From: a virus
Reading direction: 5' to 3' (one strand)
IMG/VR virus record: IMGVR_UViG_3300042341_000346
Span: 1-42,665 of that record
DNA: 42,665 bases
The notes below the pieces were generated by a model. It worked only from the letters and a program-made list of their open reading frames with translations. It did no database searches and was not told the origin of the DNA. Positions 2,516 through 14,095 of this stretch are shown one piece after another; position 1 is the first letter of the stretch, and the number at the start of each line of letters is the position of its first letter. The position numbers and the translations under genes were made by a program.

Positions 2516-4228
2516 TTATGTTTTGATGATGTAATTAAGAACTATATATGGTTGAAGGTTGTTATGTGCGCTACCGCTACCAGCATTTTGGTTGGTTGCT
2601 GTCGTAGCAATGTTGGTCGGAGTTTGGTTGTTGACCGTAATACCAGTCGTATTGCTGTTGACGTTTGGTGTGCTAGGAAAACTGCCAGTATTGGTTGACG
2701 TGTTAGCAGCAGAAACAAACGCAGTTGAGTAAAATAATGTCCATTGATTAAAGCTGTGTATGTGACCAGGGTCAGTAATTGTGTGAGTGTGAGCATTTTG
2801 AGTATGGTTGTGACTATCTTGCGTGTGAGTGTGAACAGGCATTTCTGCGCTAGTCAAAGTATGAGTCTTAGCACCACCCGTTTCACCCATACTGTCAAAC
2901 GAAACATCGGCAGAATCACGGCCAACAGGAACTTTACCTTTTAAGTTAGGAACATTGAACGTTGTAGAACCATCACCAACACCATAAGTAGTGCTAATTA
3001 CAGCAAACAAGGCCGCATAAGTAGTACGACTGACAGCAGTACCATCGCACAACAACCAAGATGTAGGAGCAGTAGTAGTCGCCCACATATTAATAACACC
3101 CGCAGGCACAAAACCTGCGTAAGAAGTATCAACAGCAATAGTTGCAGAAGATCCTTCAGATGGTGTATGTGTTACTGCAATACCTGTACTAGCAGTAACA
3201 CCTGACATATAGTTGCCTGTAGTATCAGTTCCAAGTGCAATTGATCCACTAAGCGCAATAGTACCATCTGCATTAGGTAATAATATAGTTCTATCAGCAG
3301 TAGGGTCTACACAATAAAGATACGTTTGGTTAGTATCAGTTGTTGCGCCTTCAAAATAAATACCGTGGGTATTAGGTAAAAGAATACCATGAATAACAGG
3401 TGTTTGACCAGTTGCTGTAATAGTTGGACCGTTAATGATTGGTGTAGTTAAAGTTTTGTTAGTTAAAGTATCTGTCGTATTTCTACCAACTAGTGTGTCA
3501 GAAACATTAGGGATTAATGTTGTTGAATCAATCCAGTTAGTACCATCAAAATAAAGAGTTGATCCTGTAGCTGGTGTTGTAATAACAACATCCGTAAGGT
3601 CATCCAACACAATAGAACCAACAGAACCTGTAGCACCAGTTGCTCCCGTAGCACCTGTGGCTCCTGTGGCTCCTGTAGCGCCAGTTGGACCAGCAGGTCC
3701 TGTTGGTCCAACATCTCCTTGGATACCTTGGATACCTTGGATCCCCTGAATACCTTGTGCACCTGTAGCACCCGTAGCACCGGTCAAACCAATTGGTCCT
3801 TGAGGACCAGTCGGACCAGTAGCACCAGTAAGACCAGTAGCACCTGTTAAGCCAATTGGTCCAGTAGCACCCGTAGCGCCTGTTTGTCCCGTAGGACCCG
3901 TTGGGCCAGTGGCACCAACAACACCTTCGGGGACAGTAAAGTTAAAAATTGCGGCAGAGGACGAACCCGAATTCGTCACTACTGCCGCTGTACCAGGAGC
4001 GCCAGTCGTCGTCGCCCCGACAGCGACCGTGGCAGCAGTCCCAGTAACACCCTGAATACCTTGAATTCCCTGAATACCTTGAATGCCCGTTAATCCACGG
4101 GAACCATGCTCAATAACAATGGTGGTATCGGAACCAATAACAGTAGACGAGTTACCATTAACATCACTAGTTGTATAAACAATAGTGGTGTCATCGGAAA
4201 CAGGTTTAACTACTGTCGAATCATGCAC
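2516..4228 (-). CDS. tail fibre with collagen-like repeats and collar domain
   Basis: The 570-residue fibre has three parts. Residues about 48-60 and 106-205 are Gly-X-Y collagen-like repeats ([19 protein letters not shown]), which form trimeric shafts. A beta-rich middle contains the [17 protein letters not shown]-type fibre motif. The C-terminus is a phage tail collar domain ([21 protein letters not shown], then [17 protein letters not shown]). It is followed by a histidine cluster, including [15 protein letters not shown], of the type that binds metal inside trimeric fibre tips. The start is GTG, overlapping the stop of the upstream BppU-like gene (GTGCATGA), with a GAGGCGG binding site. 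It probably recognises the host surface. Confidence 0.88.
3613..3915. repeat. collagen-like Gly-X-Y coding repeats
   Basis: This is low-complexity DNA inside the fibre gene, with runs of 9-bp units such as those encoding GlyAlaThr and GlyIleGln. A second short GIQGIQ block lies at about 4050-4087. These tracts are prone to slippage and can vary in copy number between relatives. Confidence 0.85.
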
Positions 4229-4775: not shown

Positions 4776-4889
4776 ACCCCTATGATACCATCTCCCACAG
4801 GAAGCGTCTCTAAAGAAATTTTTTTGTAGATGCACCATACAGCTTACGCTCACAACTGATCACCGACAAGAAGCAGAAGAGGCTTCTAA

Positions 4890-5045
4890 CAGACCCGCCC
4901 CCTTGCACGGGGACAGAGGATGACACACCGAAAGGTGGGTAGACCTTCGCACTTGATGCGAGGGAGCAGCGTCCAAACGTCACAAATGAATCTGGTTCTC
5001 CGTCCTGCAACACCGGCCACCACAACAGATATGTTGAAACGGTGG
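4890..5045 (+). ncRNA. candidate structured RNA
   Basis: Several helices follow each other. CCCC/GGGG closes at 4899-4912. CACC-GAAA-GGTG, a GNRA tetraloop on the plus strand, lies at 4926-4937. An 8-bp stem CCTTCGCA/TGCGAGGG with a 5-nt loop lies at 4944-4964. A nested pair lies at 5011-5044: outer CACCG/CGGTG and inner CAACA/TGTTG. The GAAA loop favours plus-strand transcription. No known RNA family is recognised and no promoter or terminator was identified, so the RNA is only a hypothesis. Confidence 0.3.
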
Positions 5046-5213
5046 GGGGATAAACCCACAACCCACTCCTCCAGGCTTTTAAATAAGTAAACAATGTCAC
5101 TGTCACAGAAATACCAAAATAGACAGGACGATTATATATGTGACGGGGTGCTGGCACATCGGTGAATGAGATTCCTATCTACTCTACTTAGCCTTTCCCG
5201 TCTGCTCGTCAGC

Positions 5214-5263
5214 GACCCACGTTGTGGGTCACTTCCTCACCGACCCCCCTGGGGGCATCGGTG
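5214..5263. repeat. two adjacent perfect hairpins
   Basis: GACCCAC-GTT-GTGGGTC lies at 5214-5230. It is followed by CACCGA-CCCCC/GGGGG-TCGGTG at 5238-5263. No T-tract follows either one, so they do not look like intrinsic terminators. Confidence 0.7.
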
Positions 5264-5593
5264 GTAACACCCATCGGCGACGACCACGCCTAACAACGCC
5301 GTCAAGCAAGCGCCGACCACGTTGACACCACCCCGTCGGCTTCGGCGCAAGGTCAACCACCACCGTACCAGCATCACACAGCACACGACTGTCTGTTGGT
5401 GGTGTGTGAGCAGGTGTGTTGTGTTTGCTTTACTTGTTGTCTGTACGCTTGTCTGTGTGGTGGTTGTACCCTGTTTGGGGGCGGTCTGAGCCGAGGTCTC
5501 AGACACTGCGGTCGGAGCCCCAAAGGGCGGGTCTCCGCCACGAGGGCAAGGTCAAGGGACAGGTCAAGTGCGCGGGACACCCGCACCCGTCAC

Positions 5594-5609
5594 GCTCGCT
5601 GAGGCGAGC
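5594..5609. repeat. hairpin GCTCGC/GCGAGC
   Basis: A perfect 6-bp stem with loop TGAG lies in the hairpin-rich non-coding region. A weaker CGGAG...CTCCG stem containing CCC-AAA-GGG lies just upstream at about 5514-5538. Confidence 0.6.
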
Positions 5610-5654
5610 CTTTCCTTCAAACCCTAGATCTTCGTTCGTACCTCACTCAATACA

Positions 5655-5676
5655 AGATCAAAACCAGATCAAAACC
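5655..5676. repeat. tandem 11-bp direct repeat
   Basis: AGATCAAAACC occurs twice in perfect tandem (5655-5665 and 5666-5676), about 80 bp before the 8-bp iteron array. This fits a protein-binding site within an origin or operator. Confidence 0.8.
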
Positions 5677-5756
5677 TTTTGCCTGTGTCTTGTGTGCGGT
5701 ATTGCCACAGTTCGCAGGCTCACTATGCCAAACCCCACACGACACCGACAAATATC

Positions 5757-5797
5757 AACCGATTAACCGATAAACCGATTAACCGATATTACCGATT
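5757..5797. repeat. iteron array, AACCGATW x4 plus one variant
   Basis: Four consecutive 8-bp units read AACCGATT, AACCGATA, AACCGATT and AACCGATA (5757-5788). A fifth, TACCGATT, follows at 5790-5797 after a 1-bp slip. The alternating final base gives a 16-bp higher-order period. Tandem short iterons of this kind bind initiator or partition proteins. The ParB-like protein and several small early proteins are candidate ligands. Confidence 0.85.
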
Positions 5798-5832
5798 CGC
5801 CCGTGACCAGCGCAATATACAAGGACACCATC

Positions 5833-5875
5833 GACCCCCAAGTGCGGGGTCAATGTTGTCCTGAGGCTACGCCTC
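5833..5875. repeat. two hairpins after the iterons
   Basis: GACCCC/GGGGTC (5833-5851) is enclosed in an imperfect outer pair GGACA...TTGTCC. It is followed by GAGGC-TAC-GCCTC at 5863-5875. Confidence 0.65.
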
Positions 5876-5976
5876 GCGCTTCTGATGCTGTGGTACGGTG
5901 CCCAAGAGTGTAGCGACGGCTGTCTCCTCGTGTCAAATCGTGTAAAGGTCGGGAGGGCACCGACCGCCACGATTAT

Positions 5977-6037
5977 ACATTTTTTGTAAAAACTTTTTGA
6001 CGGTAGGGCGTTTGTCAAAAACTTTTGAAAAAAATGT
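5977..6037. repeat. AT-rich long inverted repeat
   Basis: The left arm 5977-6001 (ACATTTTTTGTAAAA...TTTTTGAC) and the right arm 6014-6037 (GTCAAAAAC...AAATGT) are reverse complements with only a few mismatches, around a 12-nt centre. The element is almost pure A/T apart from its GTCA ends. It could act as a DNA-unwinding element next to the iterons, or as a transcription stop in either direction. Confidence 0.7.
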
Positions 6038-6045
6038 GACACTCG

Positions 6046-6087
6046 TTTTTTTCACGGCGGAGCTTCGCTCTCCCGCCGCAAAAAAAA
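6046..6087. repeat. GC stem extended by T7/A8 tracts
   Basis: The order is T7 (6046-6052), CGGCGG (6055-6060), an inner AGC-TTC-GCT, CCGCCG (6073-6078) and A8 (6080-6087). The A and T tracts can pair and lengthen the stem. Their order, T before and A after on both strands, is the reverse of what a single intrinsic terminator needs downstream, so cruciform or RNA-stability roles are as likely. Confidence 0.65.
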
Positions 6088-6148
6088 TGCTGGAACTGGT
6101 TCTCGCTATTTACACAGGGAGTTTCTTGAGTCTTTTAGGGATGGGCAA

Positions 6149-6169
6149 CCCGTACCACCGAGGTGCGGG
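6149..6169 (+). promoter_or_regulatory. leader stem-loop before the first early ORF
   Basis: CCCGTACC and GGTGCGGG form an 8-bp stem with one G-T wobble and the 5-nt loop ACCGA. It ends 7 nt before the AAAGGAG ribosome binding site of the mini-ORF at 6188. An 11-codon frame (ATG 6141 to TGA 6173) spans it. The position suits translational or transcriptional control of the early block. Confidence 0.45.
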
Positions 6170-6187
6170 ATGACTAAAGGAGTTCAA

Positions 6188-6280
6188 ATGATATTACTTT
6201 TCTTTTTCTTTTCTTTTTTTTCTTTTTTTCTAATTTATGTAATGTTCAATCAACTATCAACACTAAGGAGTTCACGATGA
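6188..6280 (+). CDS. 30-aa Phe-rich hydrophobic mini-protein
   Basis: ATG 6188 has an excellent AAAGGAG site at 6176-6182. The product starts MILLFFFFSFFSFF, continues with LIYVMF and ends in a polar basic tail (NQLSTLRSSR). This is the layout of a single membrane helix with a cytoplasmic basic end. Its TGA overlaps the ATG of the next gene (ATGA), so the two are probably translationally coupled. The alternative is a non-coding pyrimidine tract or a leader peptide that only controls translation of the next gene. Nine phenylalanines in 30 residues is extreme. No family is known. Confidence 0.5.
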   Translation: MILLFFFFSFFSFFLIYVMFNQLSTLRSSR

Positions 6281-6555
6281 ATACGGAATTGGCAGTAAAC
6301 GACTTCGCGTTACTTGACTATCTCTTGAGTAGTCAAGGCGTTGTAAGTCAGTCAGCAGAAGATGAGTTCTTTGACTCAATCGCAGATGAACCCGAGGTAA
6401 TGACTAGCGTTGCTGGTTACTGCCTGTATACAACTGTTTACATCTATCCTAACGGTTTCACGACAACCAAGGTTCAGAGAATGTTCACGACTCACGGTTT
6501 AGACCGAACAGTCACCATCTACATCAACAACAACGGAAAGCGAGTTCAATCATGA
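6277..6555 (+). CDS. 92-aa hypothetical early protein
   Basis: This is the first sizeable early gene, with an AAGGAG site about 6 nt before ATG. The product is acidic at its N-terminus (LLDYLLSSQG, EDEFFDSIADEPE) and has beta-like strands later (YCLYTTVYIYPNGFTTTKVQ, RTVTIYINNNG). Its stop overlaps the next start (ATGA), so it forms a coupled pair with the 267-aa gene. Codon choice favours C-ending codons, unlike genes after 7.5 kb. No family is recognised. Early proteins here may be replication or host-takeover factors. Confidence 0.75.
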   Translation: MNTELAVNDFALLDYLLSSQGVVSQSAEDEFFDSIADEPEVMTSVAGYCLYTTVYIYPNGFTTTKVQRMFTTHGLDRTVTIYINNNGKRVQS

Positions 6556-7355
6556 AAACCATCAAGCAAGTTGACAAACAAACAGGAGAGATCATGAGTC
6601 AAGTCATAACCGAAAACCCCACGGGGCTCAACGCAGATACAGGTGAGCGCACCTTTGCCTCGCTTGATAACGCAATGAGCATTGTTACTCACTACATGGG
6701 CGAACATATGGAAGTCACGACCCCACGAATGCTTGCAGAAATGATTCTGCAGTCCAGCGTCGCTCGTGGCGTACGACCCACATATTCCTCAACAGACTTG
6801 GATAACAAGACTGACTATGTAGCAGACAACATAACCAACCTAGTTCGTGGTTGGTTCAAAACAAACGAGAACCTAATCGGTGTCGGTGTGTATAACACCC
6901 AGTGGTTCGGTCTAACAACAAACGGTGACCAGTCTGACTTGACTGCTGACCGTGTGTGCATCGTTGAAGCGCCAGTAGATACGGTGATGCGTAAGAAGTT
7001 CGGTAACTTCGTTATGTTGCGGTTCAAGGCTGACGGTGGCAAACTCGTCAATCCGAGAACCAAAGCGGAGACCAACTTCACTTACCCCACTAGCACTGGT
7101 GCAGACGGGCGAGTGTGGTTCACATCGGATCTGATGCCAGCCCAGTGTCTTGACGGAATCATCACAAAATTCAACAGACTTGAAGAAGCCAAGTTCGCTT
7201 TACAGGAACTTGCTGGTGCGCTTTACACACTCAAGCGAGCGTCTGCTGAGCAAAACACTGCTGATGTTCCATCGGAATGGGAAGCAGAGTTGGTCAAAAT
7301 TGACAAGGCTGAAAAAGCGTTAGCAACAGCCAAGTTGGTAGAACCAGCGATGTGA
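6552..7355 (+). CDS. 267-aa hypothetical early protein
   Basis: The start overlaps the previous stop (ATGA). The product is soluble and mixed alpha/beta: helical at the N-terminus (FASLDNAMSIVTHYMGEHM), with a central NENLIGVGVYNTQWFGLT segment, and ending in a long charged helix (KIDKAEKALATAKLVEP). There is no nuclease, helicase or HTH motif that I can identify. It is the largest early gene beside the presumed origin and shares the C-ending codon preference of its upstream partner. A strong hairpin follows its stop, so these two genes plus the mini-ORF look like one transcription unit. An origin-binding or early regulatory role is possible but unsupported. Confidence 0.75.
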   Translation: MKTIKQVDKQTGEIMSQVITENPTGLNADTGERTFASLDNAMSIVTHYMGEHMEVTTPRMLAEMILQSSVARGVRPTYSSTDLDNKTDYVADNITNLVRGWFKTNENLIGVGVYNTQWFGLTTNGDQSDLTADRVCIVEAPVDTVMRKKFGNFVMLRFKADGGKLVNPRTKAETNFTYPTSTGADGRVWFTSDLMPAQCLDGIITKFNRLEEAKFALQELAGALYTLKRASAEQNTADVPSEWEAELVKIDKAEKALATAKLVEPAM

Positions 7356-7365
7356 CAGTCGGTGG

Positions 7366-10953: not shown

Positions 10954-11205
10954 TTGAAATTAACGAACGATGATATCCGTTCATTTGCTCAAGATGATTC
11001 CAATACTTTATACATTGAAGATCACAGTCTTTTCTTGATTAGTAATACAGTCCAGCCGAATTCTTATTTGGCTGGACTGCTCACTTATTTAAAACATCCG
11101 GAGTCTGGCATTGAATATAAACAGTTATTTATTATGGACATTCAACAGTTGCGTGATTTGTTTAATGCTATTACGGACCATTTAAATGTGGTCGATAAAT
11201 CCTGA
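10954..11205 (+). CDS. 83-aa hypothetical protein
   Basis: A TTG start is used with TTGGAG about 7 nt upstream. The product starts MKLTNDDIRSFAQDDSNTLY and has a probable beta-hairpin and C-terminal helix (IQQLRDLFNAITDHLNVV). It follows ssb by 11 nt and overlaps the next frame by 20 nt. No family is recognised. Confidence 0.65.
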   Translation: MKLTNDDIRSFAQDDSNTLYIEDHSLFLISNTVQPNSYLAGLLTYLKHPESGIEYKQLFIMDIQQLRDLFNAITDHLNVVDKS

Positions 11206-12579: not shown

Positions 12580-12837
12580 ATGACAGATAAAACATATAAC
12601 GGTTGGAAGAATTTTCAGACTTGGAATATTATCTTATGGTTAGATAATGATGAAGGTTTGAATTCGTTAGTACAAGATTATGGTCACAAGAAATCGTATG
12701 AAGATTTTGCATACGACTTTCTGTTAGAGCACAGTACCACTACACCTGATGGTGTTAGATGGTTGGATCGTGATCTTGATTGGGATGCGTTAGATAAATA
12801 TATGGAGGAGAATTGTGATGTCGGTAGTGTCGAATGA
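12580..12837 (+). CDS. NGWKNFQTWN-motif phage protein
   Basis: The 85-residue product opens with NGWKNFQTWNIILWLDND. This is a highly conserved motif of small proteins in phages and plasmids, function unknown (a DUF7249-like family by recall). AGGAGGGG lies before the ATG. The end overlaps the ParB-like gene by about 20 nt. The family is often found in early regions, and no enzymatic motif is visible. Confidence 0.75.
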   Translation: MTDKTYNGWKNFQTWNIILWLDNDEGLNSLVQDYGHKKSYEDFAYDFLLEHSTTTPDGVRWLDRDLDWDALDKYMEENCDVGSVE

Positions 12838-14095
12838 GATTATTCATGTTGCGTTGAAGGATTTGTATCCTTCTAATAATAATGTGCGTGGATTTATGAA
12901 TGAAGGCAACATTGTTGACTTGATGAATTCAATTGCCCAGGTGGGTTTGTTGACGCCTTTGATTGTTCAAGAACTTGGTGATGTTGAGGGTGGCTTCGTG
13001 GTTGTTGCTGGCCATCGCCGGCTTGAGGCTTTGACTCGTTTGCATTCTGATGATTGGCTTGTGCCTGTGTTGGTGCGTAACGATTTTGATGATCGTGCTG
13101 TTACTCAGGTGATGTTGATTGAGAATTTGCAGCGTGAGGATTTGTCTCCGCTTGATGAGGCTAAAGCGTTTAAGTCTTTGTTGGATTCTGGGTTTAATCA
13201 GACTGAGATTGCTGACAAGATTGGTCGTTCTCAAAGTTTTGTTTCTCAGCGTTTGAATTTGTTGACGTTGCCTGATGATGTGCGTTCGTTGCTTGCTGAT
13301 AAGAAGCTTAAGTTGTCTGATGCTGTTCAGATGATTGGTATTAGCGAAGAGTCGTTGAAGCCTTTGGTTAAGAAGGCTTTGAAAAATGAGTCTACTGATC
13401 CTGTTTCATTTAGTTCTTGGGATATTGATGGTGCTCGTCGTGCTGATGCTCGTGCTCTTGACAAGAAGATTGTTGATGAGTTTAAGTCTCGGTATACAGT
13501 GCTTGATAGTCGGCCTGATGATCTTGATGTAACTGTGATTGCTGTGATGGCGACTGATCAACTTGCTTCATACATGCCATCCGATGATGATGTGTTGTAT
13601 CAAAGTTATAATGGCATTGTTGTTGCTGAGGTTTCATTGAAGTCTGGTGACGATGTTGATCCTTGGGATGCTTATCATGATGAGCGTGATCGTGTTCGTA
13701 AGATTAATCATGATGCGATGGTCAACTATAGGTTAGCTTCTAAGATGATTGTCAAGAGTTTGATTACTGATAAGACTCATGCTGCTCGTCAGGTTATGTT
13801 GCGTAGTTCTATTCGTACGCTTGTTAATGAAATGTATGACGCTCAAAGTTCAGTTGAGTCATTGCTTGGTTTAGACTTTGATGATTGTGAAGATGTTTGG
13901 GATGCATGGCTTAATGCTAGTTCTGAGAATGTTATTCAAGCATTGTTGTGTTGTATGTATGACAACGGTGAGTTAGATGGTGACATTGAACCTGTGCTTG
14001 CATTGGAAGGTCTTGAAACACCTGCGATGTTAGAAATGCCTGAACCTCCTGAAGAGGATGAGGATGATGAAGATCTCGAAGATGAGAATGAATAA
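12818..14095 (+). CDS. ParB-like partition/regulatory protein
   Basis: The 425-residue protein has the ParB/Srx N-terminal domain with AGHRRLEAL (about 64-72) and IENLQREDLSPLDEA (about 101-115). The ParB HTH follows (NQTEIADKIGRSQSFVSQRL, about 127-146). GHRR and the ENLQRE box are the CTP-binding motifs. The C-terminus is long and ends in a very acidic tail (EEDEDDEDLEDE). GTG 12815 precedes ATG 12818, which has the better-spaced GGAGG. No ParA ATPase was found, so it may act as a sliding clamp for transcription or replication control rather than a classical partition system. The iteron array at 5757 is a candidate binding site. Confidence 0.88.
   Translation: MSVVSNEIIHVALKDLYPSNNNVRGFMNEGNIVDLMNSIAQVGLLTPLIVQELGDVEGGFVVVAGHRRLEALTRLHSDDWLVPVLVRNDFDDRAVTQVMLIENLQREDLSPLDEAKAFKSLLDSGFNQTEIADKIGRSQSFVSQRLNLLTLPDDVRSLLADKKLKLSDAVQMIGISEESLKPLVKKALKNESTDPVSFSSWDIDGARRADARALDKKIVDEFKSRYTVLDSRPDDLDVTVIAVMATDQLASYMPSDDDVLYQSYNGIVVAEVSLKSGDDVDPWDAYHDERDRVRKINHDAMVNYRLASKMIVKSLITDKTHAARQVMLRSSIRTLVNEMYDAQSSVESLLGLDFDDCEDVWDAWLNASSENVIQALLCCMYDNGELDGDIEPVLALEGLETPAMLEMPEPPEEDEDDEDLEDENE

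Follow-up and report, generated by a model that had tools for sequence, protein, structure and literature searches.

Tandem repeat arrays in the divergent gap of an uncultured actinophage: a candidate replication origin exchanged together with two early genes

The divergent gap and its repeat arrays

The window, i.e. the whole stretch of DNA analyzed here, comprises 42,665 nucleotides of a viral genome (IMG/VR record IMGVR_UViG_3300042341_000346). Its ends overlap by 127 bases, which bears out the 42,538-bp circle assumed in the initial annotation. An actinobacterial host is indicated by the gene content, which includes WhiB, a Gp3-like protein, SSB, RusA, a Cas4/RecB-like nuclease, and a lone ParB-like protein, and the terminase is distantly related to Streptomyces phage terminases. 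The phage had been described as lacking replisome genes, and this holds for the families searched, apart from SSB: helicase, polymerase (Pol I), ParA, and integrase were not detected in the window, and the positive controls worked. With SSB as the only such gene, the host machinery must be attracted somewhere. How replication starts in small actinophages without recognizable replisome genes is poorly known.

A leftward late arm and a rightward early arm diverge from an intergenic gap that contains the features listed in Table 1. The leftward small ORF at 4810-5157, which delimits the gap on its left side, may not be a gene; in that case the gap would start at 4854.

Table 1. Positions of the gap features and of the relevant genes in the window
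Feature	Position	Strand	Remarks
Divergent intergenic region, leftward late arm vs rightward early arm	5158..6276	.	ORF list
AGGTCAA, three copies	5349..5567	+	AAGGTCAA at 5349-5356 and 5548-5555, AGGTCAAG from 5561
Array B, 11-bp tandem repeat	5647..5676	+	Exact copies at 5655-5665 and 5666-5676 (AGATCAAAACC)
58-bp block separating both arrays	5685..5742	.	86% identity in G018; missing from G005 and G006
Array A, AACCGATW octamer in five tandem copies	5757..5797	+	Period 8, doubled to 16 by the T/A alternation
Hairpin adjoining array A, 17-bp arms	5822..5862	.	Arms AGGACACCATCGACCCC/GGGGTCAATGTTGTCCT
Conserved block, partly AT-rich	5928..6041	.	92% identical in G018
Early protein of 92 aa; its gene is the first in the exchanged cassette	6277..6555	+	84% identical in G018, 31% in G005/G006
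267-aa early protein, candidate binder/initiator	6552..7355	+	
Lone ParB-like protein (ParB_N + HTH_ParB)	12815..14095	+	Disfavored as array binder

Both repeats noticed on first inspection were confirmed. The perfect 11-bp repeat (5655-5676) is part of array B, for which Tandem Repeats Finder reported 2.7 imperfect copies from 5647. The five octamers of array A follow each other in the order AACCGATT-AACCGATA-AACCGATT-AACCGATA-tTACCGATT, the fifth copy deviating from the motif and being displaced by one base. The octamer itself is no more than quasi-palindromic. The observed ungapped tandem scores were 17 and 13, as against a maximum by chance of 12 among 1000 dinucleotide-shuffled versions of the gap, so that the score of either array was reached in 0 of 1000 shuffles. 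The arrays are thus real and non-random. Array A is also the strongest tandem repeat of the genome outside predicted coding sequence; the few tandem repeats scoring at least as high all lie within predicted genes, e.g. the collagen-like tail gene. This tail fiber gene (window 2516-4228) contains the triplet repeats behind many of the other tandem-repeat calls, and shows just 46-58% identity among otherwise near-identical phages.

An AT-rich palindrome had been placed next to the arrays as well, but this could not be maintained: the nearest conserved AT-rich inverted repeat (TTTTTGAC at 5994-6001 and GTCAAAAA at 6014-6021) is located ~200 bp further to the right. It belongs to the conserved block at 5928-6041, which has an AT content of 58-64% in parts, lies ~130-240 bp from array A, and is a candidate unwinding element or promoter.

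Conservation and exchange among relatives

Scanning IMG/VR with the terminase yielded 39 loci. Nearly the whole early arm is common to four genomes, i.e. the window, G018 (IMGVR_UViG_3300042673_000889, a partial genome), and the two circles G005 (3300032233_000914) and G006 (3300033064_000830). A further record, IMGVR_UViG_3300044637_001287, was not counted as independent evidence, as the 3.2 kb compared showed 100% identity.

Both arrays are kept in place in G018, which carries CTTAAAAC three times at the position of array B and three exact copies of AACCGATT at the position of array A. Their order is unchanged and they flank the 58-bp block (Table 1); most of the surrounding DNA no longer aligns. 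The 8-bp array forms an identity island inside diverged DNA, with an altered copy number and an unaltered motif. G005 and G006, both of which are complete circles, have neither array, and AACCGAT does not occur at all in their gaps. The left part of the gap is kept in the relatives, and the right part exists in two types: the right half in G005 and G006 is unrelated to that of the window, and the two are mutually 81% alike over 1.1 kb.

The proteins encoded next to the gap follow the same division. Identities to the window in G018, G005, and G006, respectively, were 100, 99, and 99% for the terminase and 99, 97, and 94% for SSB, but the 92-aa protein is similar in G018 only (Table 1), and the 267-aa protein is 60% identical in G018, with no match in G005 and G006 at the threshold used; in the full alignment its identity is 62% in G018, 28% in G005, and 27% in G006. 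Products of the next two genes reach 96, 80, and 52% and 86, 89, and 82%, and the genes neighboring the cassette are conserved in all four genomes. The genomes hence fall into type 1 (window, G018) and type 2 (G005, G006), and the arrays switch from one to the other jointly with the 92-aa and 267-aa genes, a covariation based on two genomes of each type. The right half of the gap, the arrays, and the two genes thus form a single exchanged cassette (~5590-7360).

The comparison with relatives that had been proposed in the initial annotation cuts both ways: of three close relatives, two lack the repeats and one has them, but their pattern tracks the linked genes. Of the proposed reading, the conserved cis-site paired with the early 92-aa and 267-aa genes gains support from the covariation, whereas the ParB-like protein as its binder does not stand (see below). 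Judged from these sequence patterns, the arrays accompany the neighboring early genes rather than the ParB-like gene, and they probably serve as binding sites for a protein encoded next door, either a replication starter or a regulator.

Several further differences and similarities between these genomes were noted. The early gene at 10954 (83 aa; 99, 41, and 37% identity in G018, G005, and G006) has a cassette-like identity pattern, yet it adjoins the SSB gene far from the gap. A small SLOG-like gene (YspA/YAcAr-like, below the Pfam cut-off), which is missing in the window, separates the gap from the 92-aa gene in G018 and G006 (L004 ~3250-3660, minus strand; right end of the G006 gap). At 6045-6086, TTTTTTTCACGGCGGAGCTTCGCTCTCCCGCCGCAAAAAAAA has the look of a bidirectional terminator, with the arrays on one side and the early genes on the other; it is not kept in G018. 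The most widely conserved noncoding element is found at 5078-5179 of the window (88-99% in close relatives, ~72% in G002, and also matched in G008). It includes GGACGATTATATATGTGAC (a leftward TATAAT) and is possibly a late promoter or packaging site.

Replication initiation and competing readings

We consider the arrays an iteron-like cis-site for a protein of the adjacent cassette. Its likeliest role would be in replication initiation, a reading to which we assign a probability of about 0.4. A cassette product would bind the repeats cooperatively; the 267-aa protein is the likeliest candidate and the 92-aa protein a possible one. Once bound, this product would open the AT-rich conserved block nearby, and the host replisome would then be recruited, so that phage DNA replication would start from the divergent gap. 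If confirmed, this would amount to a compact module of origin and initiator that uncultured phages can swap in; for study, the analysis offers a concrete cis-site together with a single unannotated protein.

For the 267-aa protein, no family, PDB profile, or Foldseek fold was matched, and neither it nor the 92-aa protein has a recognized DNA-binding domain. The AlphaFold models were poor (pLDDT of 51 for the 267-aa and 44 for the 92-aa protein) and too weak for use. Since family, profile, and fold matches are lacking and the model is unreliable, the DNA-binding role of the 267-aa protein is a putative one. Beyond the four genomes, no homologs of this protein were found in IMG/VR or in sequenced phages. 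It is conceivable, although we regard it as rather unlikely, that the 267-aa protein represents a novel and rapidly evolving initiator family of phage replication, which binds the divergent gap at contiguous octamer and AAAACC arrays, and that in this actinophage group initiator and origin are swapped as a two-gene cassette in an otherwise retained genome.

Known iteron origins provide likenesses as well as differences. Iterons of theta replicons are usually spaced at 18-22 bp; the spacing of the octamers in the window is shorter. DnaA boxes are common, though not universal, at iteron-type origins, and none was found in the gap of the window at up to 1 mismatch. In lambda and Stx phages, the origin consists of O-binding iterons beside an AT-rich tract inside gene O (PMC7466680). 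As in the lambda ori/O and P1 RepA systems, the window has tandem direct repeats with a partly AT-rich conserved block nearby, and the repeats are linked to an early gene exchanged together with them. It differs in that its units measure 8 bp and 11 bp instead of ~18-22 bp, the candidate protein has no initiator domain, and the gap has no DnaA box. The arrays are moreover intergenic and located upstream of the candidate initiator gene, and not inside it as in the lambda-type layout.

GC skew had been suggested as a check of the origin. The skew of the window does switch near the gap, with its minimum just right of the gap and its maximum near the point of convergence, and G005 and G006 show the same overall shape. 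However, skew follows gene orientation, so that origin and transcription are inseparable by this measure; with this confounding, and with no such switch in G002, it was dropped as proof of an origin.

DnaA boxes ahead of the early arm in more distant relatives also speak for replication. In G009, two perfect ones form a 15-bp inverted repeat there. The sequence GTGAGTTATCCACA is common to the regions upstream of the early arm in G009 (contig 43976-44040) and G002 (contig 18134), and its two copies in G009 are the sole exact DnaA boxes of that genome; the contig of G009 has no end overlap, and the junction across its ends was assumed. G002 (86% terminase identity) has one exact DnaA box in its gap (L018), with short CAACC/CCAAC tandem repeats ~30 bp before it; these make up an array of another sequence at a comparable location. 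A 216-aa early ORF of G002 has no Pfam match, and its start (MNINIYPAKNGIGSTTLGLA) recalls a degenerate ParA Walker A motif.

Exchange of a site and an adjacent gene as a unit is expected for initiator and iterons or for regulator and operators alike. The arrays might accordingly be operators, i.e. cooperative sites through which a cassette regulator (the 92-aa or the 267-aa protein) controls divergent early and late promoters, with no role in replication initiation. This possibility ranks second, directly behind replication initiation, and we hold it to be tentative. The arrays sit between the divergent arms, conserved blocks on both sides could hold promoters, and a regulator with its operators would show the identical linkage of site and early genes. 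However, the first early gene is ~480 bp and the leftward arm ~500 bp away from the arrays, the hairpin and a further conserved block intervene between array A and the early gene, a consensus promoter overlapping the arrays was not found, and no repressor family is matched. In temperate phages, repressor binding sites and the cognate gene move jointly between relatives. The sites and the linked gene exchange jointly here as well, but the window has neither a repressor family match nor an integrase. The heptad operators/centromere of Omega (pSM19035) are contiguous short repeats without spacers. Those of the window are likewise contiguous, short, and spacer-free, but they are octamers, and no delta/omega genes or ribbon-helix-helix protein were found.

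Neutral repeats, i.e. slippage products that the window phage and G018 share through common descent, appear improbable. Six other viral contigs, which have no similarity to the window proteins, carry at least three AACCGATN units, in the inspected contigs mostly at short intergenic joints, and a control octamer pattern was found twice too. These matches were set aside as sporadic repeats for want of similarity to the window proteins. They imply that the motif alone is not diagnostic and that the weight rests on the conserved arrangement; slippage and common ancestry have to contend with two distinct arrays at matching positions, with the identity island in diverged DNA, and with a copy number that changed under a constant motif.

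Even less probable is an RNA-based origin, for which replication would be primed or controlled by a noncoding RNA encoded in the structured gap, the short repeats being incidental. On either strand, the region 5360-5900 has a much stronger fold than shuffled sequence (z = -4.9 and -5.5), and repA-less actinophages are known to have prophage origins of the RNA-based type (PMC7157519). Against this, no Rfam match was obtained, most hairpins are not shared between the window and G018, and it is the arrays themselves that are conserved.

The ParB-like protein and the partition reading

The ParB-like protein, the obvious candidate and the binder suggested by the initial annotation, is contradicted by natural recombinants. 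Identity of its HTH to the window is 78, 100, and 79% in G018, G005, and G006, respectively, which results in a crossed pattern: G005, a complete genome, combines an identical HTH with the lack of an array, whereas G018 combines a divergent HTH with an array. As array and HTH type assort independently, we reject ParB as the array binder at the level of sequence comparison. Among the relatives, ParB is chimeric, with a nearly constant C-terminal half and two versions of the N-terminal and HTH half, one in the window and G005, the other in G018 and G006.

In the integrase-less mycobacteriophage RedRock, parS consists of eight direct copies of an 8-bp motif, and these mycobacteriophages replicate in a plasmid-like manner by RepA or an RNA-based origin (PMC7157519). 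The window resembles this type (cluster A) as an integrase-less actinophage with direct tandem 8-bp repeats and a ParB-like gene in the genome; it differs by the missing ParA, by arrays that are not beside parB, by octamer copies of 5 and 3 instead of 8, and by a relative with an identical ParB HTH and no array. The least probable reading, that the octamer array is the parS site of the ParB-like protein as in extrachromosomal RedRock, is favored by the matching period and layout, the ParB_N/HTH_ParB protein, and the lack of an integrase, and is opposed by the absence of ParA (PF01656 profile, positive controls worked), the ~7 kb between the arrays and the ParB gene, and above all the HTH identities of 100% in the array-less G005 and 78% in the array-bearing G018. 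For canonical parS (TGTTTCACGTGAAACA), the best match still had 4 mismatches. Orphan ParB proteins without ParA are widespread, including in mobile elements and phages (PMC12704722), so that a lone ParB is no evidence of a partition site.

A different motif, AAGGTCAA(G), clusters strongly in the left gap half of all four close relatives, nearly always on one strand, with 12 occurrences in the gaps versus 4 elsewhere in the four genomes. Being present in all four, this AGGTCAA-type motif would be a better fit to the shared ParB than AACCGATW.
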